Source of the DNA: a virus
IMG/VR virus record: IMGVR_UViG_3300033571_009790
Coordinates: 1-37,580 of that record
Length of the DNA stretch: 37,580 bases
Direction: 5' to 3' (one strand)
Notes under the pieces: model-generated
The model's input: the letters and a program-made list of their open reading frames with translations, nothing else
Database searches by the model: none
What the model was told of the DNA's origin: nothing
Part shown: positions 5,401-22,332 of the stretch, in pieces
Position numbering within the stretch: the first letter of the stretch is position 1
Layout of the letters: the number at the start of each line of letters is the position of its first letter
Program-made: the position numbers and the translations under genes

Positions 5401-8400
5401 GACTATCATTAATATCAATATTTCCATAACTATTGGTAATGTCACTTGGATTAACACCAAGTAATTCAGCAGTTATATCTATATTCTTTTGATAATCATT
5501 AATTTGTAATGTACTATCAACCAATGAAGCATCAGTTTCTATGAAAATTCTACTTTTAGTTGTAAGTGTATTAATATTTTTACGAGTATCTTCTAATTCT
5601 AAAACTAGATTATCTAATAAAAGACTATTATTATCAAATTTAGCTTTTTCAATATCCACCTTTAATGTATTACTATAAATACAATTATTTAATAGATCAT
5701 TGAATATGGTTAATTGTTGTTTTATTTCACCATTTTTAGATGTTACACATTCATTATACTCATTTATTTTAGTTAAATCATTTATTTCATCATCACCATA
5801 AACTAAAACCTTACAATAATTTTCAACATCAAAATTAGTTAACTCATCTATCTTGTTTTGATAAACATTACAATTTAATGTATTATCAATATTAGATTTA
5901 GCAGTAGTTATTGAAATATTCTCACTTATTTTCTGATTTATTTCATTATCAATATCTTGAATTAACAAATTAATTTTGTTTTTTTCAATTTCTAAATCAG
6001 TTAAATAACTATTAGTTTCATCAATTAAATTATTATTATCTCTAGTTAAATTACCTTTAGCCAAAGCTATTTCATTAGCACTTTCATAATGTGGGTCAGA
6101 ATAAGTACCAGATGTACTATCACTACATTTTAATTCAAAATTTTGTATTAATTTAGTTACTGAATTTATTTTACTTTGGTAATCCCAATATAAATTATTC
6201 CAAGTCGCAACATTGTTAGGCATATCTAGACCACAAACGTTTTCAGTATATATGAAATTATCTAATTTTATTGGACATTCTGGTTCTGAAATTAATATAT
6301 TATAACAAACTTTTTGTGTCGCAGAATCTACTCTTAAAGATAAATCACTTTTCAATCTATCTAACAATACATCCATATTGTTATACAATTCTATTATTTT
6401 ATCATAACTGAAATTTAGTGATGATAAGAATTGTGTGGTAGGATTATTAGTTAAAGTAGTATATAATTCTTTATTTCTATTATACCATTCAGAATTTGTA
6501 TTAAGATATTCTGGTACAGATAACATAGTACCACCAATAGCGTTACAACATTCAGAATCCGGTTCTAAAATATTTGTATTCTGCCATAGTTGGTAATATT
6601 TGTTAGCATAATAATTACTAGTTTTATCTCTTTGATCAAAGAAATTATTTTCTAATGATGTAGAATCATTTTGTGAATTAGTAAATACAGCAAAATTAAA
6701 ACAAGATGGTGAGTGATTAAAACTATTATCATATAATAAAGCAGGGAAACATAAGGTTTCATCTATTTTTTCTTGACATTCTTTTAATTTATCAACATCA
6801 AATTTTAACATATAATCAAATGTGAAATCAACAGTAGCAGAACAATCACTCAATTTTGGTAATTTAAAACCATTCCAATTGTTACTACCAAATACTATAG
6901 ATACATCATTTACTGAACCACACCCTATTCTTTCTGGGTCAACGGCTGCCCTAGTTATAGAATTTGGGTTATTACTATATAAATTACCATTATCTTTATA
7001 TGGTATTACTGAATTAGTTTGTGGGTCTAAATAGAATGAACCCATTACATACCCCAATAAATTTGCGATATTCTCATACAATTGGGATAATTGTCCAGTA
7101 GCATACCAATCTAAAACAAAGTCACTTTGAAATGTTTTAGGTGTAAAACTAACTCTACTATATTGGTCAACACTATATACTTTCCAGTTTGCTGGATTAT
7201 TGAAACTAGGGTCATCAAATAATGCATTTGTAACTACTGATGCACATTCATAACAATCAGTACCATTACCTACTATAAGTTTAGCTATATCAAAAGAATC
7301 TTTATATATTTTAGTTGAATAGTATTCATTTACACCACCTATTGGGTTTTGTAAATTAGTATAAGAATTATTTAGATTAACGTCAAAATCAGTAACCAAT
7401 GGTGGTTCACTATTTATTTTATCTAATTCTTCTTGTAAATATTCAATTTCATTTGTTAATTGATCTATTTGTATTTCTAAATTTATTAATTGATTATTAG
7501 TTAATGTACCAGATGATTTTTTTTCTAGTAACAAGTTCAATTGAGTGTTTTTAACTTTTATTTCTTCACTAATCTCAGCACTAATATTTGTTGGTGTATT
7601 AAGTGAATTACCACTCAAACAAACAATGTAATCTTTAGTACCATCAGATACTATTTTACTATTATAACCATACCAAGCACAACACTCTGGACTACTAACA
7701 ATTGTTTTACTACAAGATACTTTTTTGAAAAATAACAATGTAGCTGGGGTGATCCCTTTTGTATTTAAATATGTTTGTGGATCAATATTAGTTGTTTGTG
7801 GTTGTGGTTCTAATACAACCTTACTAACTGCACTATTTGCACCCATAAAGAATTGATTACCCCTATCTGTTAATTGATAACAAGATCCATTATATGTGTA
7901 AAAATCATTAGGTATTGTATTGTTAGTTATTTCAAAAACAATAATACCTTCGTCAGTAGTATCCACTGGATTACCAACACAAGGTGCACTTTTAGAACAA
8001 TATTGTATAGTTCTACAATCTTCACTAGTGTAACTAATAAATTTACCACCCTTATCGTTACAACAAGATGGGAAAGAATCAAATGATACTTTATTGTTTG
8101 AGTCATCAACAAAATAAATAAATGGTTCAGATGTTACACTATTAAGTGTTGAGCAATCAACTATAAAATTATCTCTAGGTATCTCATCTAAACATATTTG
8201 TAAAGAAAGATTTTTATCACAATTTTCAGTAGTTGTTTCTAAAGATACATTATAACTAGCTAAATCATAATTACTTTTAATAATATCCCATTCAGGAGAA
8301 AATTCTAAATAACTATCTTGTTTTATTCTTGATAAATAATCTTTATATTCTTTTTCCGCTATTTCAAATTGTTGTTGGAATGTTGTTTTACCACCTGGTT

Positions 8401-10483
8401 GTAGTGGTGTTTCAATTAAACTATAATTGATGTTAAAACAATCATCTATTTTTTGATATGTTCTTATTGATGGAATATAACTTAATTGTGTAGTAAAAAA
8501 CTGTGAAGTGTTAATGTCTACACCATTAAAAATACCATAATTATAATTTTCAAAATAATTTTTAGGGAATGTAGTAGCCGTTATAGTAATAGATGGTTGA
8601 TTGTTGAAATCAGGTATAAAACATCTACTAAAATAATTTAAATATTCATTACCACCATCATAATTACCTATGTGTGGATTATTACCCTCTAATATAGTAG
8701 GACTACTAGTACCAAAAGTTTTTCTATACCAACCACCAGCTTTTTGAAAGTACATTTCACTAAATGAATCTTCAGTTATACCACTTACAAGATTTGTAAT
8801 TACAATATCACCATTAATAGGTGGTAAAGGGAATCCATTATCATCATAAGGAATGTTAGAAGTATCAACATTACCAGTATATAGATATAATAATTGTTTT
8901 ATTTTATCCATATCTAATGGTTTATCAACAATAACTACATATTCATTAAAGTTGACTAGTGATTCCGGTGCCCCAATAAATCTAAATAAAAATTCTACAG
9001 CTTTTCTACTACCCTTACTCTTCCATAACCAAGCTATGTTTAGTATTAATCTTCTATATAATTCAATATCTATTTCACTTTGTGTTAAATTAGTAGATGT
9101 TCCACTAAACATTCCACCACCATTACTAGGTAATAAAGTTTTGTTAAGTGTTACATCGGTTACAAAGGTAATTGGGTCTAACCCCAACATATAAGCTAAA
9201 TCTTTAACTAATACATCTGGTATATTGTTTTTCTTATCATAAGTTACTACGTGTGCGAACTTAATTCCATTAATATATTTTTTAATTTCATCAAATTCAA
9301 CCCCATATATTCTTAATAATTTAGTTGCCTTTTCACCTTGTATGGTATAGTCATTGGCATCACCTTTTGGTAAGGTATCAAAACTACTAATAGCCTCAGA
9401 CGTATATTTTCTAACAATTAAATCAGTACTACTATTGTCTAAATTATCACCAATAGCATTAATTTTATTCAAATATGTTAAATAAAAAGTATCAAAAAAG
9501 TTTAGATTATATCCGTCAGATAATACTGGAAATAATAAAGTATCTTTTGTTGTTAAGATTATACCATCATCAGTAATTTCTGTTGATATAAATATTGCAT
9601 TATATTTAGGATAAGTTTCTCTACTTAATATATTTCTTTGGAAATTATTAAGGGAAGTAAAAAATTCCTCAATCTTTTCTTCTTTTGGTTTTATAAAATA
9701 TGGTAAAGAACCATCTACACTAGAAGTTAAGAATGTATATTGTGGAATATATATACCAGTTAATTCAGGGAATGGATTTCCCTCAACAATTATCTCTAAA
9801 TCAGAATTTGTTTTTTGTGTTGCTGGTGTTATGCTTTTAATTGGTCTTGATATACCATTGTACTCAATTACATAATTTTTGTATTCTAAAGTAAAATTTC
9901 TTAATGGGTTAGTAGTATTAGTATTCACATTACCAGATCCATTAGATGAGGTATAAATAGCATCTTCGGTGTATTTTATACCATATGGATTGTTGAAGAA
10001 TCTACTATTAACTGTAAATGTAGATTCATTCAATGAAATATCATAACTATAATTTGTTATGTTATTACCACTAACAGAACCAACCTTATTATCTACATAA
10101 ATTGCAGCAGGCCAATTGTCTTGTATTTGTAATAATGAAGATTTAATTAATTCTTTTGTAGAACCATACCAAACATAACTTAATGGATTTGTATAATCTA
10201 AATTAAGTTTTGTTTTTAAATTCTTTTGAATTAATTCCTCTGAATTACTTGTTACTACATCATCTAAAGTATAATATTTAGATTTTGTACCCTGAGTAAA
10301 AACAGCATCTGGTTTTGGGTCTAAGTTTACATCTATACTAAAATTTCCATTTGTAAACAATGTAGTACCACCATCACTAGTTAGTTGTAACCCAACTAAA
10401 TCAGGACTAAAATTTCTATATTCTATATTATCATTAAAGAATATTCTTTTAGCATATCCAGCAATTTTTACTCTATTAGCCAT
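2453..10483 (-). CDS. Giant (2676 aa) baseplate/tail structural protein with gpI/gp7-like segment
   Basis: It starts at an ATG (MANRVKIAGYAKRIFF), 8 bases after the upstream gene, with no Shine-Dalgarno. Residues ~470-510 (ELYRRLILNIAWLWKSKG, followed by RKAVEFLFRFIGAPE) resemble the 'KGT..A...L' segment of P2 gpI/T4 gp7-type baseplate proteins. That is my reading from pattern, not a search. The rest alternates beta-rich stretches with predicted coiled coils (about residues 975-1030, 1478-1540, 1600-1640, 1695-1730 and 2495-2570). Vicinal cysteine pairs recur near residues 805 (PSCCND), 933 (PECCAW), 1311 (SECCNA), 1764 (NTCCDP) and 2263 (AECCSS), and a dense cysteine cluster follows the last. 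No enzyme motif or signal peptide was recognised. It lies just before the fibre gene, so a baseplate wedge or fibre-anchoring role is likely. The size is far above that of gpI (~180 aa) or gp7 (~1030 aa). Confidence 0.7.
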   Translation of the reverse strand: MANRVKIAGYAKRIFFNDNIEYRNFSPDLVGLQLTSDGGTTLFTNGNFSIDVNLDPKPDAVFTQGTKSKYYTLDDVVTSNSEELIQKNLKTKLNLDYTNPLSYVWYGSTKELIKSSLLQIQDNWPAAIYVDNKVGSVSGNNITNYSYDISLNESTFTVNSRFFNNPYGIKYTEDAIYTSSNGSGNVNTNTTNPLRNFTLEYKNYVIEYNGISRPIKSITPATQKTNSDLEIIVEGNPFPELTGIYIPQYTFLTSSVDGSLPYFIKPKEEKIEEFFTSLNNFQRNILSRETYPKYNAIFISTEITDDGIILTTKDTLLFPVLSDGYNLNFFDTFYLTYLNKINAIGDNLDNSSTDLIVRKYTSEAISSFDTLPKGDANDYTIQGEKATKLLRIYGVEFDEIKKYINGIKFAHVVTYDKKNNIPDVLVKDLAYMLGLDPITFVTDVTLNKTLLPSNGGGMFSGTSTNLTQSEIDIELYRRLILNIAWLWKSKGSRKAVEFLFRFIGAPESLVNFNEYVVIVDKPLDMDKIKQLLYLYTGNVDTSNIPYDDNGFPLPPINGDIVITNLVSGITEDSFSEMYFQKAGGWYRKTFGTSSPTILEGNNPHIGNYDGGNEYLNYFSRCFIPDFNNQPSITITATTFPKNYFENYNYGIFNGVDINTSQFFTTQLSYIPSIRTYQKIDDCFNINYSLIETPLQPGGKTTFQQQFEIAEKEYKDYLSRIKQDSYLEFSPEWDIIKSNYDLASYNVSLETTTENCDKNLSLQICLDEIPRDNFIVDCSTLNSVTSEPFIYFVDDSNNKVSFDSFPSCCNDKGGKFISYTSEDCRTIQYCSKSAPCVGNPVDTTDEGIIVFEITNNTIPNDFYTYNGSCYQLTDRGNQFFMGANSAVSKVVLEPQPQTTNIDPQTYLNTKGITPATLLFFKKVSCSKTIVSSPECCAWYGYNSKIVSDGTKDYIVCLSGNSLNTPTNISAEISEEIKVKNTQLNLLLEKKSSGTLTNNQLINLEIQIDQLTNEIEYLQEELDKINSEPPLVTDFDVNLNNSYTNLQNPIGGVNEYYSTKIYKDSFDIAKLIVGNGTDCYECASVVTNALFDDPSFNNPANWKVYSVDQYSRVSFTPKTFQSDFVLDWYATGQLSQLYENIANLLGYVMGSFYLDPQTNSVIPYKDNGNLYSNNPNSITRAAVDPERIGCGSVNDVSIVFGSNNWNGFKLPKLSDCSATVDFTFDYMLKFDVDKLKECQEKIDETLCFPALLYDNSFNHSPSCFNFAVFTNSQNDSTSLENNFFDQRDKTSNYYANKYYQLWQNTNILEPDSECCNAIGGTMLSVPEYLNTNSEWYNRNKELYTTLTNNPTTQFLSSLNFSYDKIIELYNNMDVLLDRLKSDLSLRVDSATQKVCYNILISEPECPIKLDNFIYTENVCGLDMPNNVATWNNLYWDYQSKINSVTKLIQNFELKCSDSTSGTYSDPHYESANEIALAKGNLTRDNNNLIDETNSYLTDLEIEKNKINLLIQDIDNEINQKISENISITTAKSNIDNTLNCNVYQNKIDELTNFDVENYCKVLVYGDDEINDLTKINEYNECVTSKNGEIKQQLTIFNDLLNNCIYSNTLKVDIEKAKFDNNSLLLDNLVLELEDTRKNINTLTTKSRIFIETDASLVDSTLQINDYQKNIDITAELLGVNPSDITNSYGNIDINDSQKVSLQIILEKNKKQISDLRLQKNDLNQNLATIDFNYNEALDITNAQSNLYVEEIDSLPDSCDGGNVNTCCDPELLDLLYETLNRLNDNFSIVEQNTIKQYDNWYNQIQTNYTNYIDIKSTYLTFINNLKLNFKLFVDNNNSTVLNNIDSDLTYLPYTESVNPIWEFSPTDGYSGIILEGNEQLVDLIKEDIFNDLSLQNKDYNSDLFEPSWKTFKYNLPECVCDDLRRLYPNKEFFFSIEIENYSCSVCLLVDNIQVNVSDCKTNKVISLNDCMIPQLSCVIDNKKSWVYYDSGIVKETVYPNGECNQNSVVNYEVLKVNSPEERLYSDLEYRYTNYDEYHSDLVMNVKNTTFSIDPAKAIECDVFNYWRNIDCDNCPTSCDDDGKIYEDGDDLLFMDCNSYIFEDQSTILPIVFSGSVYYSSTTLTDYSITLEDVVTSGLTFNCQDYIDILNTQVVELKNKYYTLTGDYSESLSSTYYGLLEKGETLSKFYIDQNNCDSETIVINNNKELDNLFGIISENYDGSISFFEIYLYSGTTPYVGGEIIEVFSGLTAQTYNQTSSIDAECCSSLNNVINGEGSSGLGVGKTLTWDESTCRCYWSLPNNCSDCKGDCEYCGSITDVCGTNTTSSVCVNPLNFLDILPSEINVKDVFDNLVITNLIDAKSRQTISGYPLLMLFYELYLNASNCGADISGHLTYDNLFEFMDKIGDYWLDLLEQVVPSTTIWEGCDNSGKIYRNTIFDQNKFTYKKYSLNFLDSNDCIVSGVTDFSIGSSDVYSLVEQVPIYPDNTTIRNIKNSIRLQNILIANQEKVVKNLNKQSCALNLQDVDTPNLQTKKNQLQQSIDLANSELIKLNTKLNEYKVDLINEEEKYIKQQNDFVTKYMSCSGITSVLKTAQEDLSKYTPGTTNYEKQRNYISILNDKYDKCVRQSNILISDYNKVFITQIYDTNEYEGNVTIIGDPDWEEDGPFYNKELIHNCTT

Positions 10484-10491
10484 TTACGTTT

Positions 10492-11394
10492 TTAAAAATT
10501 AGTTATTACATCAAAATCTTTCGTTGGGTCAATAGTTGTCTTTTGTTCCCTAACCTCATACAATGGTTTACCAGTAAACTGATCCTTAACTTCATATAAG
10601 TTATATTGTTTGTAAATCTGGTCTTCAAAATTGTATATAGTATAAATACCATCTTCTAAAGATTTTGTTTGATTAGAATATAAAGCATAAGCCAATGTTT
10701 CTTCATCGTACTCTACCATCTCTATTTCTAACATAACTGGATTGAAAAACGTATTTGTAATAATTACATCTTGTTGTGGATTACCAATAAAAGGTACCGC
10801 GTTTGGTTTTACAGTTGGTGCCGATGATGGTGTAACTGTACAAAAAACACTAGTCGAATTATCATTAAATGTATATGCTACAGTAGAGTTTGAATTACCT
10901 TGATTTTGATTAATTGGTAATGCTCTATTGTTTGAGGTAATAATTCTAAATAAATTTTGTATCTTATTTTGTTGTGTACCACCTTGTTGTTTTAAGTACT
11001 CAACTCTATAGCCAACTAAATTACCATTTTCAAACCTATTTTGTAAATCTAAGGGTATTTGATTTAAGTCAAAAACTAATCCTCTAATTTCTGGGTTATC
11101 AACTAATACTGAACAATCTTGTATTTTTGTTCTTATTTGTCTTGGTCGTATAATTACACTATAAAATCCCTTACTACCAAAAACAGATGTAGGTAATTTT
11201 AAGGTGTATAGTCCTCCCAATATTTCGTTACTATTTGTTGGACTACTAGCAGGTACTAATACCTCTTGTGGATCCAAACTAAATAATTCTACAGTGTTAG
11301 TATTTTCTCTATTAGGACTATAACTATAAAGTATTTCTACATCTTGAACCGATACGTCTGCTGGTCTTATAGTTCCATAATTACCTGTTGCCAT
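10492..11394 (-). CDS. Putative baseplate/tail structural protein (300 aa)
   Basis: Not recognised as a named family. The ATG start (MATGNYGTIRPADVSVQDVE) follows the neighbouring stop by 13 bases. The protein is beta-rich, with many Asn, Gln and Thr residues, and has no signal peptide, membrane segment or catalytic motif. The middle (about residues 130-200) is a low-complexity Q/N-rich stretch (QQGGTQQNK, NQNQGNSNS), typical of exposed loops in virion proteins. It sits between a 291-aa and the 2676-aa structural gene, co-oriented and nearly contiguous with both, so a small baseplate or tail-tip component is the best inference. Confidence 0.6.
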   Translation of the reverse strand: MATGNYGTIRPADVSVQDVEILYSYSPNRENTNTVELFSLDPQEVLVPASSPTNSNEILGGLYTLKLPTSVFGSKGFYSVIIRPRQIRTKIQDCSVLVDNPEIRGLVFDLNQIPLDLQNRFENGNLVGYRVEYLKQQGGTQQNKIQNLFRIITSNNRALPINQNQGNSNSTVAYTFNDNSTSVFCTVTPSSAPTVKPNAVPFIGNPQQDVIITNTFFNPVMLEIEMVEYDEETLAYALYSNQTKSLEDGIYTIYNFEDQIYKQYNLYEVKDQFTGKPLYEVREQKTTIDPTKDFDVITNF

Positions 11395-11407: not shown

Positions 11408-12283
11408 TTATACTCTTATAAATCCACCTCTATTTGTATCTATGTCATTAGTACTTTTTATTTCAGATAAAATAGCGTGTCTTTCAAATATATCTTCTAT
11501 ACCTCTATTAATAAATACTACACTATCAATTTCTGGTTGAAAAACTACACCTAAATATTCTTCTTTTTTTACATTTGCCTTTAAAGATGTGTTAAATTTA
11601 TCCCATCCACCACTTTTTATCTCAAAATTAGTCTCAAAGTGTTTCTTAGGATTACCACTTGAATCTACTCCAAGGGCAAATTTATTTTTACTAGTTTTTA
11701 ACTTAAGACCTGTATTAGCAATATCATCTTTGTTTGCGTTTATCTTATAAATTATATCTTCTTGTGTGTCAATTATTACACCATCAAAATATTCTGAAGG
11801 ATTATTAGATGTATTAAGTGATTGTACATAAATAGGTTGATTGTTTTGGTCAACTCTATAAGATTTTACACTACTTAAATATCTATCATCAGTAAATCCT
11901 GTAACTATAGATGTTTGTGAGTAATAAAAATCTACTGGTGCCCCGGGTAATCTACCATAAGAAAAAGAATTAAAATCTACTGGTGGTTGTGTAAGTGTTT
12001 GATTTTTTGGTGTAAAATCAAAATCACTAAATAATCCCATATCATCTAAATCTTGAGTTAAAAAAACATCAATATCTATTGTATTTTTTATTTTTTGACC
12101 CTTCTCATCTAATATGAAATTACCATTAGAATCTACCTTATATTCTGGAATTTTACCATAATAGTATTTTGGACTATCAGTATCTATAATAGTGTTACCT
12201 TCTGAGTCTTTAGTTAGAACTGTTTTAGGTATAGTTCTTACTGTATAATTCTCTAAACTTCTTCTTTTTTTAAGGTATTCCAT
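11408..12283 (-). CDS. Putative baseplate/tail structural protein (291 aa)
   Basis: No family recognised. The ATG start (MEYLKKRRSLENYTVRTIPK) lies 13 bases past the stop of the 294-aa gene. The N-terminus is basic and the rest is beta-rich, soluble and cysteine-poor. The C-terminal part (VVFQPEIDSVVFINRGIEDIFERH) combines strand-like and helical segments. No membrane segment or enzyme signature is present. Its place in the run between gp6 and the fibre supports a virion role, probably baseplate. The sequence ATATTTATTA lies 2 bases upstream of the start; no Shine-Dalgarno is visible. Confidence 0.6.
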   Translation of the reverse strand: MEYLKKRRSLENYTVRTIPKTVLTKDSEGNTIIDTDSPKYYYGKIPEYKVDSNGNFILDEKGQKIKNTIDIDVFLTQDLDDMGLFSDFDFTPKNQTLTQPPVDFNSFSYGRLPGAPVDFYYSQTSIVTGFTDDRYLSSVKSYRVDQNNQPIYVQSLNTSNNPSEYFDGVIIDTQEDIIYKINANKDDIANTGLKLKTSKNKFALGVDSSGNPKKHFETNFEIKSGGWDKFNTSLKANVKKEEYLGVVFQPEIDSVVFINRGIEDIFERHAILSEIKSTNDIDTNRGGFIRV

Positions 12284-12296
12284 ATTAATAAATATT

Positions 12297-13181
12297 TTAA
12301 GGTGTAATTTGCCAAAAAGTTAATGTGGGTGTTCCACCATTAGTAGGATTTAATATTAATCCTGGGGGAATATCGTTTTGTTTTGTATTTGGTTCAAACC
12401 TATATTTATACACACCATTATGATTTTTAAGTATTACCTTCAAATAAAGAATACCATCCTCACCACCTAATTCACTAAGTACAATATTTTGTGGGTCAAA
12501 ACTTTTAGAAGGACCCATTGTATATATTTTACCATTACCAGCGTGATTATATTGTAATGTCATAAACATTGTATATTCTCCATTAGGAGAATTATCTACT
12601 AAATCTTTAAACCAATATATTTGAAACCCTTCATTTATTTCGTTGGGTTCTAATATTGGGTCACCTATAGTAAATGTTATTGGTGAGTTATCTATAGGTT
12701 TTGTAAAACCAAATTCATTTTCTTGATCTTTACCAACTTGGTTATAAATGTCTGTAAATGATAGTAATGTATTTGTACCAGTATTAGGTGTATCAAAGAA
12801 GAATAATCTTATAAAACTATTTACAAATCTATTAGTTCTACAAAATATATCATCAAAAATAAAACCTATATCAGAATATACACCTGGTTCAGCTCCAGTA
12901 CCTCTATGAAGTAGTGGTGGTGGTGTTAATGTGGATGGAATATAAAAATTAAGATTTATTTTAAATTTTCTTATTAAATTCCAATTGTTATCAGCTGGTT
13001 TAAATATAACTTTTTTATAATCCACTATAGGATTTATAGATTTTTTTACCTCATCTTTAACAAATTTATCTTCTATTAATTCAGAATTATCCACAGGGAA
13101 AAAGTCACTACTTAATGTAATGTTTAAAGTGGTTCCAGAACCAATATCACCCAATAATATTTTTTTTCTATCAACAAACAT
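12297..13181 (-). CDS. Putative baseplate/tail structural protein (294 aa)
   Basis: No family recognised. It starts at ATG (MFVDRKKILLGDIGSG) inside the last 11 bases of the 667-aa gene, a stop/start overlap suggesting translational coupling. AAAGAGATAGACG precedes the start, the only mildly purine-rich leader in this block. The sequence is beta-rich with Pro/Gly loops (STLTPPPLLHRGTG) and an aromatic helix-like patch near residues 110-130 (NRFVNSFIRLFFF). No membrane segment long enough to count, and no enzyme motif, is seen. A virion component is inferred from context. Confidence 0.6.
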   Translation of the reverse strand: MFVDRKKILLGDIGSGTTLNITLSSDFFPVDNSELIEDKFVKDEVKKSINPIVDYKKVIFKPADNNWNLIRKFKINLNFYIPSTLTPPPLLHRGTGAEPGVYSDIGFIFDDIFCRTNRFVNSFIRLFFFDTPNTGTNTLLSFTDIYNQVGKDQENEFGFTKPIDNSPITFTIGDPILEPNEINEGFQIYWFKDLVDNSPNGEYTMFMTLQYNHAGNGKIYTMGPSKSFDPQNIVLSELGGEDGILYLKVILKNHNGVYKYRFEPNTKQNDIPPGLILNPTNGGTPTLTFWQITP

Positions 13182-15174
13182 CGTCTATCTCTTTTTTATT
13201 TATACTTGAGAAATCCACACATCCACCTACAATATCTCTCTTACCTAATTCATATTCACCAACATAATCACCTAAGTTTACATTTATAACTAAATCGGGT
13301 GTACCATTATAATTACTTATGTTTGTTAAACCATTAGTAGTGAGTTTACTATATATTGTTGGGTCTTTACCTACAAAATCATAACTCAAAAATGTAGGGT
13401 CACCCAAATAAGAAATAAATTTATCTCTATTAATGTTTGTAGTATCACTAGCCCCCAATATTATTTCTTCAGTTATAATATTATAATTACAAGGTGGATC
13501 TTGTCTTTGTAAGTAAAATCTATTATTTAAATTTATATAATGAGCCCCACTTTCAAATGGATAATCAACACCCCTACCCAATGAATCTATTTCACCTATA
13601 TCCATAATATCCCTCCACTTATATACATTGGTTGATGTCTCTGTGGCGTAATTAGGAATCTTAAATGATTTTTTTAGTTCTAATATTTCAGTAGGATTTG
13701 TAATGTTATATTTTTCTATTATAGAATTTAAATTTATAGTTGGGTGTATATAATTAGAAAATTCTCTAATTCTTATCAAACTAAATGGTGTATATAGATA
13801 CCCCTCTTTTTTATTTGTTTTTGTATTATCAATACTATTATAAAATTCTCTATATGTAGTATTGAATCTATGATAAACCAATTCTAAAGTTCTTTCATAT
13901 AACTCAAATTCATTATACTCACATAAATCACCATCAAAATTAATATCCGACTCATCAATATTCTCAAACCAACTATTACCAGCGTAATTTGGGTCACCAT
14001 AAGCCCTAATATTATAATTGATATTAGTATTATTCTCTAAATCATAACCAGCTGTAATCTTAGTCCAAAAACGAGTATTATTAGGTGATGTTAAGTTTTT
14101 TTGTTTTTCTAACCAAAACTTATTACTAGTACCAGTAGGATCACTATCATTATCATTTTTTAGTATAGTAAAATAAAGTTCACTAATTGGTCTACCTAAA
14201 TTATCAGTAAGTCCACTAACTACTATATCCTTTTTAAAATTAAAAGCCGCGACATTATCAGAGAAATATGTTTTTCCAAAAGCCGCTGGATACATATCAT
14301 AATCATTATAGTTTAGTGTTAAAGATTTAAATCTTCTAACATAGTATTTAGATGGTACATCATTAACAACTCTTTTAATTGTAGATATACCTACATTAAA
14401 GGCTATACTATTGGGGTCAATATCTAAAATAAATGTTCTTAATTTATTATCGTTAGTTTCATTACCTAATTTATATACTTTAAATAAACCATTTAATTTT
14501 AAACTATTATTTTGTGTATTGTCAATAAAATTATATAATTGTATTTTACTAGTTTCAGTTAAACCATGATTAAAGGCGGTTTTAAAACCAACATAATCTT
14601 TATTGTTTATTTTTACTTTAAATTTTTCAATTATTGGTACACCATCTTTTAATGATATATTTGAGTTATTTTTTACAATAACAATATCTTTGTTAATATA
14701 TGGGTAAGTTATTTTTAATAAATAATTTGGTTTACCATCGTCATCTAATATTTTTAATCTATCATAACCCGGATCAAAAGGAAAAAATTGACATAATGAA
14801 CTTTTATTATCATTATATTCTAAAGTTGTCTGATCTGGTTCATCATTGTAATAACCAATCCAACCATTTTTTTCGAATATATCATTACTCATTATTTTCT
14901 TACTAATGATATTACCATTGTCATCAGTACTCAATTTTATATTTTCATTAAATAAAGGATTTGAAACAAATGGTGAAACAACCCCATAAAATCTATATAT
15001 AGAACTTTCTTTTCTTTCTTTTAAGAATTGTTCATATTCACTAACTGTTTCAGTTATATCATTAAGTGGTATAGGTTTTGAATTATTACTAATACCAAAA
15101 TCAATAGATGAATTAGTATTTATAGAATTATAAAATCTATATTTGTTCAATAATATTTTATTTGTTTCTTCCAT
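13171..15174 (-). CDS. Putative baseplate/tail structural protein (667 aa)
   Basis: ATG start (MEETNKILLNKYRFYNSINT), one base after the stop of the 1496-aa gene; its end overlaps the next gene by 11 bases. The protein is rich in Asn, Tyr, Asp and Ile, mostly beta with many short loops, and has no signal peptide, membrane helix or known catalytic motif. Its few cysteines lie near the C-terminus (PPCNYN, GGCVDF, DDVC-end). The tight linkage to the 1496-aa protein suggests that the two are made in similar amounts and may assemble together. The family is unknown and the structural role is inferred only from position. Confidence 0.6.
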   Translation of the reverse strand: MEETNKILLNKYRFYNSINTNSSIDFGISNNSKPIPLNDITETVSEYEQFLKERKESSIYRFYGVVSPFVSNPLFNENIKLSTDDNGNIISKKIMSNDIFEKNGWIGYYNDEPDQTTLEYNDNKSSLCQFFPFDPGYDRLKILDDDGKPNYLLKITYPYINKDIVIVKNNSNISLKDGVPIIEKFKVKINNKDYVGFKTAFNHGLTETSKIQLYNFIDNTQNNSLKLNGLFKVYKLGNETNDNKLRTFILDIDPNSIAFNVGISTIKRVVNDVPSKYYVRRFKSLTLNYNDYDMYPAAFGKTYFSDNVAAFNFKKDIVVSGLTDNLGRPISELYFTILKNDNDSDPTGTSNKFWLEKQKNLTSPNNTRFWTKITAGYDLENNTNINYNIRAYGDPNYAGNSWFENIDESDINFDGDLCEYNEFELYERTLELVYHRFNTTYREFYNSIDNTKTNKKEGYLYTPFSLIRIREFSNYIHPTINLNSIIEKYNITNPTEILELKKSFKIPNYATETSTNVYKWRDIMDIGEIDSLGRGVDYPFESGAHYINLNNRFYLQRQDPPCNYNIITEEIILGASDTTNINRDKFISYLGDPTFLSYDFVGKDPTIYSKLTTNGLTNISNYNGTPDLVINVNLGDYVGEYELGKRDIVGGCVDFSSINKKEIDDVC

Positions 15175-15175
15175 T

Positions 15176-18100
15176 TTATTGACCTTCTACATTTGGAATT
15201 AGAGTCTCACCTAAACATGTTTTGAATACTGAGAAATTGTTTACTTCTTCTTCATTCACATTAGGAGTATTGTTATTATTACTAGACGCTTTATTATTTG
15301 TTGTACCTGGTATACCTATAAGTGTTTTACTATTTATTTTATCCGCGAAATAGTTACTCACTACTTTATGTAAAGCTGTTTTACCCGGTACTAATCCAAA
15401 ATACAAATAATATGGTGTTTGTGATCTGTTAAATCTAATACCTTTTATGTTTACATCACCATTTAAATCATCATTAACATTATCCACAATAGAAGATTGT
15501 TGTTGACCAAAATTAATAGTCTCATTTGGTAGATTAGGGTAATTTATAAATCCACTTGTAACACCTGGTGCCAAACCATAAAAATAATTAGGACTTTGAT
15601 TTTCTCTATAATAACCACACGCGTCACCCGGTATAAATGAATCAGAATCATTATATTCAGATAAAAATACTCCACCACCATCAGGTAACTCTTGGTAAAT
15701 TGTAGTACCATCTGTAAGTTTTATTTCAGGATATGTCTGATACACATTATCAAACTGAATGGATCCTGGTCTATTATGATGAAAAGATAAATCCTCACCT
15801 TTAAAACCATTAAATTTCTTACAAAAATAACCTCTTAAGTCACTATCGTGTTCAAATCTAACAAAACAACTACCTATTGTTACCCCAATATCATTTTTAT
15901 CAATTATATCAACACCCAATTGTGATTGATTTACAACAGCTAATGTGTTGGAACAAATTACTTTAGAACAACCAAATTCAACATAACTTCTTAAATTTAG
16001 TGAAACATCTTTTCTGTCTTCATATTTTTTAAATTGTTTTAATGTACCAATACCATTTTCACCATTATAATTTGGTATTGTATTACCAAATTTATATTTT
16101 ATATCTTCATAACTAGCGTTAAATGTTGTAGGTTCTAACTGATCCATAATAAATGGTACATCATCCACGTCACAATAACTTATACTTCCTAATTCCATAA
16201 TTGTAGTTGGTAAGAATAAGTTAGCCTTATATTCATTTTTATTATATTTTAAATCATCATTTGGTATATAAGGTGTATAATAAATTTCACCATTATACCA
16301 ACTTACTAAACCATGTTTAACATCAGCCTTATAATTGTCATATTCCGTTTTTATATCTTTTGATATACAAGGTGCCACACCATTAGAACCACAGTCTGAT
16401 TTACAAGTATATGGTTCACAACCACTACCAATAGGTATAATACTACCATCTTCATCAGAAGTGTTTTTAGGTATACCTAAATCATTTAATAGTTCAACTG
16501 TTTCACCATATTCACTTATACTATATGATTTACAATCTAAACTAGTTTTAAAAAATTCTTTTCTTTCTACCACCCTAGTATCGTTACATATATTTCTATG
16601 GTGTCCGTGTCCACCTATGTTTTCCCAACTAGATGTACCATTTACATCTTCAACCTCAATATATTCTGGTTTATCGTGTTCTGAATTTACTTTTTTATCT
16701 TGTACACTAAAGTTTACACTTTGACTATTTAAAAATGTTTCAAAATTAGAGAAGGAAGTAAACGTTATGTTACAACCATCACCATTAGATAATTGACCAG
16801 GGAATACTATGTCTTTAACAGCGTTTTCTTTGTTTTCACTTTCACTACAACTAGGACACCCATACCACTCACTTACTTTTTTACCTTTTATTTTAGCTGT
16901 ACACCCTTCATAATTAACCTTTGGGTTATTAAATAAAATAGTACCTATCTTAATTCTATGTTTGTAGAAGTATGGTTGACCTTGGAAGTCATCTGAATTT
17001 TTTATTTTACAATCAAAATCACAAAACTTATCTTTTTTAACTTGACCAAACCTTCTTTTTGATTTTTTTAAAACATATTTTCTTTTAATAAGTGGGAAAT
17101 ACAATGTACCACCTACCCAATCATTATAAAAATCAAATTTCAACATTTTTAAATATACAGCGACTGGTTCTAAAACACAAGAAACCCAATCTTTAATACC
17201 TGGGGTACTTAATCCACCACAATTTATACAACTGAAAGCTTCTACATAAGGTTTATTACAAGATTCCGCAGCAAATGGTGTAGGTAATAATGAAATTTTT
17301 ATATCTTTATCTTCTTCTTGACATTTTAAACTAATTAATGGTATTTTAACACAACATTTTTTACAACATTTACCAATATTATTAGTAAAACTATCATTTA
17401 CTTCACAACCATATTCATGATTGTTAGGGCAACAACTATGTTTTTCTCCTTCATTACAAAAATCATTACATCTTTTACATAAAAGTGGACTTAATAAACA
17501 TTTAAATTTAAAACATATACAAGTATTACCTATTTTAACACACCCATCACCACAAGAAGTGTTAAGACCACACTCCTCACATTTATAGTCACCACCATAC
17601 CAATTACTACCATCACCAATCCTATATCTTTTACATCCACTTGTTGGTAATGAATAACAACCACTATAATTATAATACCAATCCTGAACTCCAGTTTCAA
17701 CTGGGTTTTGATATATACTATCACCACCAAATTTTTGAAATAATTTGACTATTGGTGTTGGATACCAATTTGAACCATATTGTGTGAAATGTAAATCACT
17801 ATAATTTATTTTTGCACAATTACCTATTTGATCTGAGTCTGGTGGTGTTACTCTATTTGTGACATCAATACATGGTGAGAATGGATTACCATTACTATCA
17901 GTCATACCACCCAAGTTGGCATCACTATTACTTCTAATATCATCACACCCACCAATGTTTTGTGTATCACCATCATCTTTTAAATCTTTCCAACAACTAT
18001 CATCCGCATTCCAACCTTGTGATTGAACTTGTGGTCTAAACTGTGAACCCTTGTTAGGTATTAATTCCACACCAATAGGGATTTTAACATTACATAGTGC

Positions 18101-19666
18101 TGTTATTAGACCATTAATGATATTTAAAATACCATTAATTAGACCTACAACTAAACCAAAAAATGTTAATATTGTACATAATATTGTATATAATGGATTA
18201 AAATTAGTATCTAATCTATTAGTAGGAAATTTATTGACACCATTAGCGTTTATTATATCTTTAATACCTATAAAACCTCTAGCTTCGTCCGCATTAGGAC
18301 CACCTATTTTTTGTACCCTACCGATATATTGTTTAACAGTATATACTTTTTTCCATCTAAATGGATAAAACTCTTCTAAATAATTATACTGATTTGTTAT
18401 ATCATTTTGATAGGGTGTACCAGTGGTTATAGTTGATAATTGTGTGTTTAAATTAAATGGTTTATTTTTCTTTAAATCTTCACTACTATATTTATCAAAA
18501 TTAAAGTTATTATTTGTATTTGGTACTAAGAATTTAGCCCTTTGTCTTAAACGTTTATCTGTTGATGTGGAGTCCATAGATATTCTAAATCTATAATCCC
18601 CTTCTGTAGGTATACCTTTTATACCATCTGGTGATGGTACTAAATTACCAAACTCATCAGTAACAACTTTCCTTAAATTCATCGGTACTAATATAGACCA
18701 GTTACCATTATCATCTATATCACCATCGTTAAAACTAAAATTTTCTATAGAACCATCAGTTGTTCTTCTAATGGCTTCAATTTTACCAGTACTAGTTATA
18801 ACCTCATTTAGTTTACCCATTTCTCTAGCTGGTTTACAGTTCTTGTTTAATGAATCTTTTTCATCATCTGTAAACACACTACCCATAAAAATAGATGTCG
18901 GTGTTATTTCTATATTATCAATAGATATGTCTAATCTATTGATTCCTAATGGTGAACCAACACTTAAACTATCACACCAATATGGTTCAATAGTTACTGG
19001 TATGTTATCTGAAAATATTTGTGGTAAACTATCTAAGTTATTAGATGATTTAAATTTAAATCTATCTTTAAATAAATTACTTGGGTATCCTTGTGATATT
19101 AAGTCAAATGGTCTAACCGATAAATAACCTATATCACTAACATCCATATCATAATGAAGAATGTGGTCACCTAATGGTAAACCAAACAATATATAATCAC
19201 CAGATTCATTGGTTGTTGTAGTATACTTATAATACTTTTCGAATATCTCTAACGTGGTATTATTATCTAAAATTTCTCTTTTTTTAGGAAATGTACCAAC
19301 TGGTGTATGGTCTAAACTTTGTTGATTTTTTGGTAATAGATTATATCTAATACCCTGACTATTTTTTTGATCAGAAAATGGTTCACTATAAGGATATATT
19401 TGAGATATAATAGGATTGTCTAAATCACTAGTCTCAACTGGTACAAATATGGAAACCTTTACATTTGGTACACCAAATCCATTATTAATGATTACCCTAC
19501 CAGCTAAAACACCATATTCCGCACAGAAATTTTTATAGTCATCATTTTGTGATATTTTTAAACTTAAAATTTCTAAGTGATCATAATTTTGATTAAGATC
19601 AACGTTAACCTTTAAATAACCATTATCTTCACCGGGTGTTGTCCTAATTCTATATGATTTAGACAT
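15176..19666 (-). CDS. Large (1496 aa) baseplate-region protein with internal hydrophobic segment and Cys-rich region
   Basis: ATG start (MSKSYRIRTTPGEDNGYLKV). Residues ~50-180 look like a beta-sandwich of the carboxypeptidase-regulatory/CnaB kind (GRVIINNGFGVPNVKVSIFV, later NESGDYILFGLPLGDHIL). Residues ~491-528 form a long uncharged hydrophobic stretch (LTFFGLVVGLINGILNIING) long enough to cross a membrane. Residues ~667-782 hold about 20 cysteines in some 115 residues, with CxxC and CC motifs (CEEC, CKRC, GKCCKKCC). Another segment reads FDFYNDWVGGTLYFPL, and CPSC follows near residue 920. The C-terminal part has YFYGLAPG and PYYLYFGLVPG motifs and an Asn-rich linker. No enzyme was recognised. 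It lies in the J-to-H part of the baseplate block, so it is probably a virion protein; the hydrophobic core and possible metal-binding region make membrane penetration or a metal-stabilised spike conceivable. Confidence 0.65.
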   Translation of the reverse strand: MSKSYRIRTTPGEDNGYLKVNVDLNQNYDHLEILSLKISQNDDYKNFCAEYGVLAGRVIINNGFGVPNVKVSIFVPVETSDLDNPIISQIYPYSEPFSDQKNSQGIRYNLLPKNQQSLDHTPVGTFPKKREILDNNTTLEIFEKYYKYTTTTNESGDYILFGLPLGDHILHYDMDVSDIGYLSVRPFDLISQGYPSNLFKDRFKFKSSNNLDSLPQIFSDNIPVTIEPYWCDSLSVGSPLGINRLDISIDNIEITPTSIFMGSVFTDDEKDSLNKNCKPAREMGKLNEVITSTGKIEAIRRTTDGSIENFSFNDGDIDDNGNWSILVPMNLRKVVTDEFGNLVPSPDGIKGIPTEGDYRFRISMDSTSTDKRLRQRAKFLVPNTNNNFNFDKYSSEDLKKNKPFNLNTQLSTITTGTPYQNDITNQYNYLEEFYPFRWKKVYTVKQYIGRVQKIGGPNADEARGFIGIKDIINANGVNKFPTNRLDTNFNPLYTILCTILTFFGLVVGLINGILNIINGLITALCNVKIPIGVELIPNKGSQFRPQVQSQGWNADDSCWKDLKDDGDTQNIGGCDDIRSNSDANLGGMTDSNGNPFSPCIDVTNRVTPPDSDQIGNCAKINYSDLHFTQYGSNWYPTPIVKLFQKFGGDSIYQNPVETGVQDWYYNYSGCYSLPTSGCKRYRIGDGSNWYGGDYKCEECGLNTSCGDGCVKIGNTCICFKFKCLLSPLLCKRCNDFCNEGEKHSCCPNNHEYGCEVNDSFTNNIGKCCKKCCVKIPLISLKCQEEDKDIKISLLPTPFAAESCNKPYVEAFSCINCGGLSTPGIKDWVSCVLEPVAVYLKMLKFDFYNDWVGGTLYFPLIKRKYVLKKSKRRFGQVKKDKFCDFDCKIKNSDDFQGQPYFYKHRIKIGTILFNNPKVNYEGCTAKIKGKKVSEWYGCPSCSESENKENAVKDIVFPGQLSNGDGCNITFTSFSNFETFLNSQSVNFSVQDKKVNSEHDKPEYIEVEDVNGTSSWENIGGHGHHRNICNDTRVVERKEFFKTSLDCKSYSISEYGETVELLNDLGIPKNTSDEDGSIIPIGSGCEPYTCKSDCGSNGVAPCISKDIKTEYDNYKADVKHGLVSWYNGEIYYTPYIPNDDLKYNKNEYKANLFLPTTIMELGSISYCDVDDVPFIMDQLEPTTFNASYEDIKYKFGNTIPNYNGENGIGTLKQFKKYEDRKDVSLNLRSYVEFGCSKVICSNTLAVVNQSQLGVDIIDKNDIGVTIGSCFVRFEHDSDLRGYFCKKFNGFKGEDLSFHHNRPGSIQFDNVYQTYPEIKLTDGTTIYQELPDGGGVFLSEYNDSDSFIPGDACGYYRENQSPNYFYGLAPGVTSGFINYPNLPNETINFGQQQSSIVDNVNDDLNGDVNIKGIRFNRSQTPYYLYFGLVPGKTALHKVVSNYFADKINSKTLIGIPGTTNNKASSNNNNTPNVNEEEVNNFSVFKTCLGETLIPNVEGQ

Positions 19667-19680
19667 TTAATTACATTTTA

Positions 19681-20064
19681 TTATTCCTCATTATTATGTA
19701 CCTCTACATCAGAAAATTGATTCTCATCATATTCATTATATGATTTTGTTTTTTCAAACTGATTTTGTCTTTTTTTAATTTCTCTTTTATACTTAAAGTT
19801 AGTGTAAAAACTAAATATACCTAAAAAGAAACTCTTAATCTTAGAATTTAATTTAGGTAGTTTCTTAGGTAAAAAGAAAGAGAAAAATATTTGAAGGACA
19901 ATAACTAAAATAACTAATGGTATCGCCACAACAATAACCAAAAAGGCTACCAACTTGAAGAAAAAGTTTTGTGAAAAATCACCACTTAAAATGTTATCAG
20001 GTACTAATTTTAAATTTAACTCTTCTTGATTCTCTGATTTTTTTGAACAAGTACTACAACTCAT
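19681..20064 (-). CDS. Small single-span membrane protein in the baseplate block (127 aa)
   Basis: ATG start (MSCSTCSKKSENQEE) with no Shine-Dalgarno. An N-terminal polar part carries Cys3 and Cys6. A single strongly hydrophobic helix spans about residues 38-65 (VAFLVIVVAIPLVILVIVLQ). A basic stretch (PKKLPKLNSKIK, then KYKREIKKRQ) and an acidic tail ending in HNNEE follow. The positive-inside rule predicts an outside N-terminus and a cytoplasmic C-terminus. It lies 51 bases after gp6 and 14 bases before the 1496-aa gene, which also has a membrane-like segment. It could be an inner-membrane partner for DNA entry, an assembly factor or a holin-like protein; the sequence does not decide. Its membrane nature is clear, its role unknown. 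Confidence 0.65.
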   Translation of the reverse strand: MSCSTCSKKSENQEELNLKLVPDNILSGDFSQNFFFKLVAFLVIVVAIPLVILVIVLQIFFSFFLPKKLPKLNSKIKSFFLGIFSFYTNFKYKREIKKRQNQFEKTKSYNEYDENQFSDVEVHNNEE

Positions 20065-20100: not shown

Positions 20101-20126
20101 AAAAAAAAGTAACTACTATGAAGTAG
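20101..20126 (-). terminator. Weak terminator-like hairpin at the end of the gp6-like gene
   Basis: On the minus strand CTACT-TCAT-AGTAG (5-bp stem, 20113-20126) overlaps the stop codon of the gp6-like gene. After a four-base spacer come eight or more T residues. The short stem makes partial attenuation more likely than full termination. Confidence 0.35.
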
Positions 20127-21945
20127 AAATTGTTATTTTAATGTCATTATTTGGGTATTTTACTTCAAACATAGCGTTTGGTTCACCAAATAGTGTATAC
20201 CTATTTAATAAATCTATTTGTCTTGTTGTACTATCAATATATGGTTGAGCTATCTCATTTAATGAATATTTACCATTTTCATTAACTTTATTATAAACTC
20301 TTATATCAGTAACGTTTAATACCCCACCAACATTGTTGATGTTCTCAACTAATTGTGATAAATATATATTATCACCCATATCCCATTTATTAATGTCCAT
20401 ATATTCACTAATTGTTTTTACAACACTAGCGATAATGTCACCTTTTGGTATAGATTTGTCAGCAAATATGTCTACCTCAAAACCTAAATTTATTACCCTA
20501 CCATTTTTAACAGTAATATAATCATTTATCATTCTAAAATCTGATAAGTATTCAGCTATATTTTGTTTTAAAGCAGATGTAGCTTCTGTTGTAAGTTTAC
20601 CACTTGAATCTAAAGCTAAAATAGAAACATTTATTTTGTTTCTTTCTTCATAAACACTATTTCTAAATGGAACACCAAACTTACCTGGCATTAATGAAAC
20701 TCTACTTTGGTAATCTTTTATAGTTACACATCTATTTTGTGAAGAAAAATTATACCTAACTAAGTTTCTAATTTCATCTACAGAAGGTTCTTCTTTGCCC
20801 CCTAAAGCTGGTATAGGATTGTTTACACTAACACTATTTCTTATTGTATTATTTAAATCACTATTGTTACCATTAACAATTGTATTGACAATACCTAATT
20901 GTGTAACACTATTAGGACCTAAATTACTATCTTCACCACCACCAACTCTATATCTAACATACATAGTTCTACTAGGTTGTGGTATAGCACCTAATGATAA
21001 ATTATTAATTGTTTTACCTATCCTATCTATTTGACCTCTACACCCAATGAAATCATTTAATTCTGAAATGTCTGCGTCTCCAGCACCAAAGATTATTTTA
21101 CAGAATCCATTATCGGTATATTCTTTTATAAACCTTTGTGGTGCGTTTTTCCACTTACCTAAAGCAACACCTTCTCGATCAGAAATTAAGTTGTCATCTG
21201 TAACATAAATTTCAGATTGTGCCAATGCTGGTACTTCATACCAATTTAAATCAAAATTAGCAAATTCTTCTTCAGTAGGTGTTGATGTTAAATTAGTACC
21301 TTCTTTAGTAATAATATTTTCAATTGATAATACATTATCTTCTGGTAATATTAATTCAAGAAATGGTCTATAATCTTCTCTATTTATTGTTTTTTTATAG
21401 ATTTTAGTGAAACCATTTAACATTATTTCTCTCTTAACTAATGTATAGTTTTCTATTACACCATTACTAGAAATATTAGGTAATACTAGTCTATTGGGTA
21501 TACCACCTGTTGTAAATGGTGATGAAAAATCACAGTCTTCTAAAAGTTCGAAAACTTTACCAGAACCTAACGCTTGAGATCCTTTTAGAATTTTGGGTGC
21601 ATAACTTATATCAAAAGTATCTCCATTTTTTGGAATATTAGTAACTGTCCAATCGACTATAGTTATACTAGGTCTCTTACCTGGTATATTTAATCCAAAA
21701 GTTCTTGCTAATTCTAATAATGATGATTTTTCTTGTGCATAATTTATTTGAGTTTCATTAAACAATCTATCAGTATGGAATGATAACATATCACCAACCG
21801 CAGCGTTTAATTCCAATAGCATCATCCCGACTGAGGCATCGTTGAAGTCTGAAAATATCTCAGGATAGTATTGTTGTATAAATGTTATTAATTGTTGTCT
21901 AACATCAGAGAAATTACGTGCATTATAATCAATTTTTTTAGCCAT
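20116..21945 (-). CDS. gp6: Baseplate wedge protein, T4 gp6 / gpJ-like
   Basis: 609 aa with an ATG start, 3 bases after the gp25-like stop, as W and J are linked in many contractile-tail phages. The N-terminus (MAKKIDYNARNFSDVRQQL, then PEIFSDFNDASVGMMLLELN) shows the 'D.s.gmmLlEl.A..gD.L..y.d' pattern typical of gp6/baseplate J proteins. The length is close to T4 gp6 (660 aa). The C-terminal half has the usual J-type region (SVDEIRNLVRYNFSSQNRCV, KDYQSRVSLMPGKFG) and a final segment with DIRVYNK. In known phages gp6 forms the inner ring of the baseplate wedges around the hub and triggers sheath contraction. The order gp25-gp6 strengthens the call. Confidence 0.88.
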   Translation of the reverse strand: MAKKIDYNARNFSDVRQQLITFIQQYYPEIFSDFNDASVGMMLLELNAAVGDMLSFHTDRLFNETQINYAQEKSSLLELARTFGLNIPGKRPSITIVDWTVTNIPKNGDTFDISYAPKILKGSQALGSGKVFELLEDCDFSSPFTTGGIPNRLVLPNISSNGVIENYTLVKREIMLNGFTKIYKKTINREDYRPFLELILPEDNVLSIENIITKEGTNLTSTPTEEEFANFDLNWYEVPALAQSEIYVTDDNLISDREGVALGKWKNAPQRFIKEYTDNGFCKIIFGAGDADISELNDFIGCRGQIDRIGKTINNLSLGAIPQPSRTMYVRYRVGGGEDSNLGPNSVTQLGIVNTIVNGNNSDLNNTIRNSVSVNNPIPALGGKEEPSVDEIRNLVRYNFSSQNRCVTIKDYQSRVSLMPGKFGVPFRNSVYEERNKINVSILALDSSGKLTTEATSALKQNIAEYLSDFRMINDYITVKNGRVINLGFEVDIFADKSIPKGDIIASVVKTISEYMDINKWDMGDNIYLSQLVENINNVGGVLNVTDIRVYNKVNENGKYSLNEIAQPYIDSTTRQIDLLNRYTLFGEPNAMFEVKYPNNDIKITISTS

Positions 21946-21948
21946 ATG

Positions 21949-22332
21949 TTAAAATGTTAATGTAATGGTATCTGAAGAAACAAAAGTCCCCTCTGTTACT
22001 GTATACTTTAATTCCACTATAATTGATTCTTCGATAGTATCATTTCTAAATGATATATCGTTTACAATTAAATTAGGGATATATATTTTTATTGTTTCGT
22101 TTAGATTATCTCTAATTTGTGCCTGTGTTATACTATCATTTGGTTCAAAGATGTATTTTTTTAAATCACTACCGAAATCAGGTGAATATAATCTTTCACC
22201 TTTATTAGTTAATAGTAAGTGTAATAAATCCGCCCTTATAGCGTCTTTATCAGTTTTATTCATTTTAAAATAAAAACCATTGTCACTATCTCTAAAAGGA
22301 AAATCAATGTTTATGTATCTTGTTTTTGCCAT
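21949..22332 (-). CDS. gp25: Baseplate wedge protein, T4 gp25 / GPW family
   Basis: 127 aa, about the normal length of the family (T4 gp25 is 132 aa). The hallmark region is residues ~41-64, LTNKGERLYSPDFGSDL followed by YIFEP. Glu63-Pro64 match the conserved EP of the gp25 'EPR' motif, but Arg is replaced by Asn (EPND). In known contractile tails gp25 joins the baseplate wedge to the first sheath ring. It is the first gene after a strong terminator, so transcription of the baseplate block probably starts in the 86-base gap before it. I did not find a convincing promoter there. The gp6-like gene follows after 3 bases. Confidence 0.88.
   Translation of the reverse strand: MAKTRYINIDFPFRDSDNGFYFKMNKTDKDAIRADLLHLLLTNKGERLYSPDFGSDLKKYIFEPNDSITQAQIRDNLNETIKIYIPNLIVNDISFRNDTIEESIIVELKYTVTEGTFVSSDTITLTF

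Follow-up and report, generated by a model that had tools for sequence, protein, structure and literature searches.

Does the baseplate of a contractile phage tail ever carry a membrane anchor of its own? Little is known about the way contractile phages deal with the membrane beneath the baseplate, and the question is raised by a locus in IMG/VR virus record IMGVR_UViG_3300033571_009790, of which we analysed positions 1 to 37,580 (the window, 37,580 nucleotides). A 1496-residue protein, whose gene sits within a baseplate block conserved in gene order across relatives, combines a membrane-type hydrophobic helix with a Cys-rich distal half, and a 127-residue membrane protein encoded just upstream is co-inherited with it. 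As far as the searched libraries show, this baseplate-block family is previously undescribed. We propose that the two proteins may constitute a two-protein membrane-contacting baseplate module of large contractile-tailed phages probably infecting Bacteroidota, a proposal that we regard as about evenly balanced between right and wrong. The two-gene system offers a direct test of baseplate-membrane contact, at entry or in assembly, and the family provides a new handle for annotating the jumbo phages of Bacteroidota, a widespread yet uncultured group.

The hydrophobic helix and the Cys-dense region

The longest run without Asp, Glu, Lys, Arg, or His in the 1496-residue protein spans 41 residues (487 to 527), with a best 19-residue Kyte-Doolittle mean of 2.36 at residue 492 and a summed Hessa apparent insertion energy of -2.2 kcal/mol over residues 492 to 510. 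A reading made from the sequence alone (the sequence-only reading) had pointed to an uncharged hydrophobic stretch at about residues 491 to 528, and these values, together with its conservation in the family, bear it out; a segment of negative energy occurs in 80 of 81 family members. By the same measure, all remaining proteins of the window score at least +3 kcal/mol, except for the adjacent 127-residue protein at -4.6 kcal/mol. AlphaFold2 modeling of the monomer (residues 1 to 1200, 61 sequences, mean predicted local distance difference test score (pLDDT) of 72.5) returned a beta-rich region at 16 to 453, a helix, and a patchy Cys region. The hydrophobic segment was predicted as one continuous 35-residue helix, 491 to 525, with a mean pLDDT of about 90 and 10-residue block means of 81 to 92. 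The segment thus has the predicted properties of a single-span helix, namely at least 19 residues and a favorable insertion energy within one helix.

An alignment of 34 non-redundant close relatives disclosed a polar stripe along this helix: position 497 is Cys in 33 of 34 sequences, position 504 is Gly or Ala and positions 511 and 518 are Asn in every sequence, and position 525 is Cys in all 34, although this last count is not independent because Cys-525 was the criterion by which rows were selected. The residues three before each stripe position are mostly Thr/Ser, Thr/Ser, Gly, Asn/Gln, and Thr, respectively, while the other positions are mostly variable Ile, Leu, Val, or Phe, with His frequent at 505. 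Soluble coiled coils have a hydrophobic core and a charged exterior, and the reverse is expected for helices that associate in a membrane. The helix appears inside-out in this sense, a polar stripe being flanked by hydrophobic faces, which suggests a helix of the membrane type.

The protein contains 52 Cys, 20 of them within residues 670 to 784, a density reached in 0 of 2000 random placements; CEEC, CKRC, CINC, and CPSC motifs and three CC pairs are present. This agrees with the earlier estimate of some 20 Cys in about 115 residues with CxxC and CC motifs. Within the close clade, conservation reaches 90% or more in about 38 Cys columns, and 57 of 62 members carry their Cys more densely after the helix. 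The same reading had set the region apart from the 667-, 294-, and 291-residue neighbors, which indeed hold five, one, and zero Cys; the contrast fails for a 2676-residue protein of the same block that it had overlooked, with 67 Cys. All of these lie after residue 620, leaving the wedge-like part free of Cys, and relatives agree over the stretch covered. This layout suggests a peripheral location for the Cys-rich parts.

The N-terminal half is poor in Cys, is modeled with pLDDT mostly between 75 and 93 from residue 50 onwards, and shows about 80% identity within the clade. A CnaB/carboxypeptidase-regulatory-like domain had been suspected here, and sub-threshold comparisons point the same way. 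The sole Pfam match for the 1496-residue protein is sub-threshold, CarboxypepD_reg (PF13620), seen with relative L063 at E 2e-4 and 22 bits against a curated cut-off of 32.3, and Foldseek against the PDB returned weak matches only (SpaA at E 7e-4, PA1324 with probability 0.98 at E 8e-3, and SdrD B domains). The likeness to these prealbumin-like domains covers one segment of the protein. Searches of PHROGs and NCBIfam gave no family for the protein, nor did profile comparison with the PDB. In BFVD, the structure of A0A8S5LA66 of Myoviridae sp. ctPuP5, itself uncharacterised, matches almost the entire model (E 4e-55, 22% identity). The linker is mostly modeled at low confidence from residue 564 to about 660, and residues 831 to 1496 were modeled poorly (mean pLDDT 50); a fold search with this latter model gave no match.

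The co-inherited small membrane protein

The 127-residue protein, absent from the sequence-only reading, belongs to a family of which we aligned 57 dissimilar representatives. These share the start M-x-C-x(1-2)-C (MGCxC or MGCxxC), which was itself the criterion of the search, and usually have no other Cys. They have a single transmembrane segment that includes proline, and the tail is usually acidic. The start MGCxCK/MGCxxCK is similar to the motif at which eukaryotic Src-type kinases are acylated; bacteria are not known to have the myristoyl transferase, and we make no claim of acylation. A TatA-like identity was considered and rejected, its match lying far below the cut-off.

To follow the pair across relatives, viral contigs were scanned with the window protein (127 relatives, 80 kept) and with a compact relative, L087, as a second query (226 relatives, 80 kept), many contigs being common to both; 170 hits reduced to 82 non-redundant proteins. 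An automatic table recorded the hydrophobic helix and the upstream MxCxC membrane protein together in 62 of these 82, and two further pairs with the small protein were found outside it (L068 and L094, the latter with the start MGCC). The small protein is present throughout the main lineage, and a divergent clade also encodes a separate copy. No small protein lies beside the gene in relatives that lack the single helix, that is, the compact L087, L095, L171, L172, and L174, the weak-helix L137 and L168, and lineage B. A profile search, which recovered four positive controls, likewise found none in the full records of most such relatives, including those of 236 and 334 kb.

Relatives without the small protein that nevertheless keep hydrophobic helices have a longer hydrophobic region of about 65 residues. 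That lineage B has taken up the small protein in cis, as a fusion, is no more than a suggestion, since the divergent clade has both the longer hydrophobic region and a separate small protein. In L147, L154, L161, L164, L166, and L169, which have no small protein, about 65 consecutive mostly hydrophobic residues are followed by CxxCxC.

Comparison of near-identical genomes revealed that the two genes can change together. L004 and L021/L045 share 100% identity in gp6, 99% in the 667-residue protein, and 100% in the 294-residue protein, but only 43% in the small protein, 85% in the helix, and 19% in the linker, which indicates that the two genes diverge or are swapped as a unit. The linker can also change alone (29% identity between L002 and L009, with the small protein at 98%). 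Among 36 genomes, with neighboring genes controlled for, divergence of the small protein tracks that of the linker (partial r 0.37) and of the Cys/KFDFYND block (partial r 0.25), both at p 0.0005 in a permutation test that models the tree only partly; it does not track the C-terminus. L004 and L011 compared with L021 and L045 present a two-gene diversification hotspot amid near-identical gp6 and downstream genes.

A proposed membrane-contacting module and its alternatives

In the proposed module, the N-terminal half of the 1496-residue protein would attach to the baseplate, with the distal half directed outwards. The helix may oligomerise through its near-invariant Cys/Gly/Asn/Asn/Cys stripe, placing its hydrophobic faces in lipid, while the Cys-rich part would be stiffened by disulfides once the particle reaches the oxidising outside. 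In the producing cell, the Cys block would have the small membrane protein as its cognate partner. We rate contact with the host envelope during infection as somewhat likelier than docking of a baseplate under construction on the inner membrane, since rapid diversification, as seen in the linker, the Cys block, and the small protein, is typical of host-facing parts. A more specific form, in which a jumbo-phage baseplate has its own membrane anchor, an Asn-lined oligomeric helix in a Cys-rich tail protein plus a cognate CxC membrane protein, that holds the tail in a bilayer at entry or during inner-membrane assembly, with an effect like that of membrane docking by type VI secretion baseplates, is put forward tentatively, as we lean against it more than towards it. 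A literature search found no comparable membrane-contacting baseplate.

Several observations weigh against the module or favor a helix that never enters a membrane and is instead packed in a homo- or hetero-oligomeric baseplate bundle, as are other very hydrophobic segments of wedge proteins, the Cys-rich half being an ordinary disulfide-stabilised peripheral domain. T4 gp7 is the only T4 protein scored that has a negative, transmembrane-like energy (-0.17 kcal/mol), and its GenBank note reads 'C-terminus is predicted integral membrane domain', yet it is a solved wedge component of the T4 baseplate (PMC6300606). Hydrophobicity alone is therefore no proof of membrane entry, and this precedent allows for a helix buried inside an oligomer. 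The idea of a device that enters the host membrane, also part of the sequence-only reading, is made more plausible by the confidently predicted membrane-type helix but does not follow from hydrophobicity. The strict heptad periodicity also suits a bundle, and some members of the divergent clade carry Lys or Arg in the helix. The helix does not diverge in step with the small protein (partial r 0.10, p 0.07, 36 genomes), so that direct helix-helix pairing is unsupported. The compact relatives L087, L171, L172, and L174 have no such helix, indicating that it is not essential to the basic role of the protein. Five different queries of INPHARED, a collection that may omit records very close to the window, found no cultured relative at the sensitivities used. 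A buried bundle would nonetheless need an extra protein sleeve, as the outward faces are all Ile, Leu, Val, or Phe with no charge over 35 residues; moreover, the linked gene itself encodes a predicted transmembrane protein, and the single helix is missing in relatives without that gene. We consider the buried bundle conceivable, if doubtful.

Instead of being a structural partner, the small protein could serve as a cognate chaperone or act in immunity or superinfection exclusion. Sitting in the membrane of the producing cell, it would keep a membrane-active, Cys-rich tail protein in check, the two evolving as a matched pair. Its two N-terminal Cys and single transmembrane segment would fit such a role, as would the joint divergence of the pair between near-identical genomes, its correlation with the linker and Cys block, and the much faster divergence of small protein and linker than of neighboring genes. 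However, throughout the main lineage the small gene is located within the baseplate block, flanked by gp6 and the gene of a structural protein, whereas the genes of known exclusion proteins, T4 Imm among them, usually lie apart from the tail genes; we judge this role somewhat unlikely. The sequence-only reading had offered metal or disulfides as a means of stabilisation. For the Cys-dense block, binding of zinc or an iron-sulfur cluster in place of disulfides would suit the CxxC and CC motifs of a protein made in a reducing cytoplasm. Against it, Cys counts in the block share a single parity in 28 of the 32 sequences (16 to 21 of 32 for other residues), suggesting paired gain and loss of Cys, though independent closest-pair contrasts weaken this signal to 11 even versus 7 odd. 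Cys-containing baseplate and tail proteins are also common to our block and to Agrobacterium phage Milano, whose baseplate contains a disulfide network (PMC10811340). Milano's inter-chain links extend over many proteins, while here a dense block in one protein, with putative pairing, accompanies a membrane-type helix. We regard disulfides in the Cys block as plausible and metal binding as rather unlikely. Finally, the place of the 1496-residue protein after gp6, as for T4 gp7, P2 gpI, and TssG, and its one transmembrane-like segment, as in T4 gp7, could mark it as a divergent gp7/gpI wedge subunit. It shows no sequence or profile similarity to these proteins (hhalign E 0.17 to T4 gp7 and 0.69 to gp7-like proteins) and lacks the profile similarity with a (K/S)TKG/KSKG helical motif by which the gp7 family is recognised, whereas the N-terminal region of the 2676-residue neighbor matches gp7-like proteins at E 8e-6. 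We rejected T4 gp7 as its identity, and regard even a divergent wedge subunit as highly improbable; profile comparison found no T4 counterpart, as had been supposed. The tape measure proteins T4 gp29 and TP901-1 TMP are virion proteins that also have a hydrophobic segment, but unlike them the 1496-residue protein is encoded in the wedge block, has a mostly beta N-terminal half, is Cys-rich, and has a linked membrane protein.

Gene block, relatives, and likely host

The window is a low-GC (28%) fragment of a contractile-tailed phage and carries, entirely on its minus strand, RNR, helicase, UvsX-like, and SSB genes together with the genes for the baseplate. The block runs gp25, gp6, small membrane protein, 1496-residue protein, and then the 667-, 294-, 291-, 300-, and 2676-residue proteins, an order constant in relatives with enough flanking DNA.

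Table 1. Features of the baseplate block and of its two central proteins, in window coordinates
Feature	Position	Strand	Basis
1496-residue baseplate-block protein	15176..19666	-	open reading frame, ATG start
Its residues 1-453: beta-rich, highly conserved N-terminal domains (putative docking half)	18308..19666	-	AlphaFold2 pLDDT, conservation
Its residues 51-175: CnaB/CarboxypepD_reg-like domain	19142..19516	-	Pfam PF13620 sub-threshold; Foldseek
Its residues 491-525: single hydrophobic helix, heptad stripe C497-G504-N511-N518-C525	18092..18196	-	AlphaFold2, insertion energy, conservation
Its residues 535-669: hypervariable linker, largely low-confidence in model from 564	17660..18064	-	alignment, AlphaFold2
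Its residues 670-784: Cys-dense block, 20 Cys	17315..17659	-	Cys count, column conservation
Its residues 843-856: near-invariant motif KFDFYNDWVGGTLY	17099..17140	-	family alignment
127-residue single-pass membrane protein, N-terminal MSCSTC; partner gene	19681..20064	-	insertion energy, family alignment, co-divergence
Its residues 38-56: proline-containing transmembrane segment	19897..19953	-	insertion energy, alignment
gp6-like baseplate wedge protein	20116..21945	-	PHROG 219/6
gp25-like baseplate wedge protein	21949..22332	-	PHROG 261, Pfam GPW_gp25
667-residue conserved block protein, no known family	13171..15174	-	family scans, conserved gene order
294-residue conserved block protein, no known family	12297..13181	-	family scans, conserved gene order
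291-residue conserved block protein, no known family	11408..12283	-	family scans, conserved gene order
300-residue conserved block protein, no known family	10492..11394	-	family scans, conserved gene order
2676-residue protein: Cys-free gp7-like N-terminal part, then a Cys-rich remainder	2453..10483	-	hhalign E 8e-6; Cys positions
Its residues 337-515: gp7-like wedge match, KSKG motif	8939..9475	-	hhalign

The sequence-only reading had left the occurrence of this architecture elsewhere to be searched for. Relatives turned up on well over 100 contigs from metagenomes; genome assemblies supplied seven loci, including Bacteroidales and Paludibacteraceae metagenome-assembled genomes and a Prochlorococcus single-cell genome. 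Ribosomal protein S21, also carried by freshwater Bacteroidetes phages (PMC9723584), is encoded in three of the four searched records above 200 kb (those of L029, L067, and L137, at 253, 380, and 236 kb) and was not found in the 334-kb record behind L171. Together with SprB repeats in some C-terminal parts of the family and gene leaders mostly without Shine-Dalgarno sequences, S21 makes Bacteroidota the likely hosts. The Prochlorococcus case, L085 (QCKH01000004.1, 83.8 kb), is a family contig inside a single-cell assembly, and could reflect co-sorting or an unexpected host. At the left end of the window, an open reading frame at 1 to 2415 on the minus strand runs off the edge; its approximately 800 residues are rich in SHAEG-type repeats that look like those in the heads of trimeric adhesins, and it probably encodes a tail fibre.

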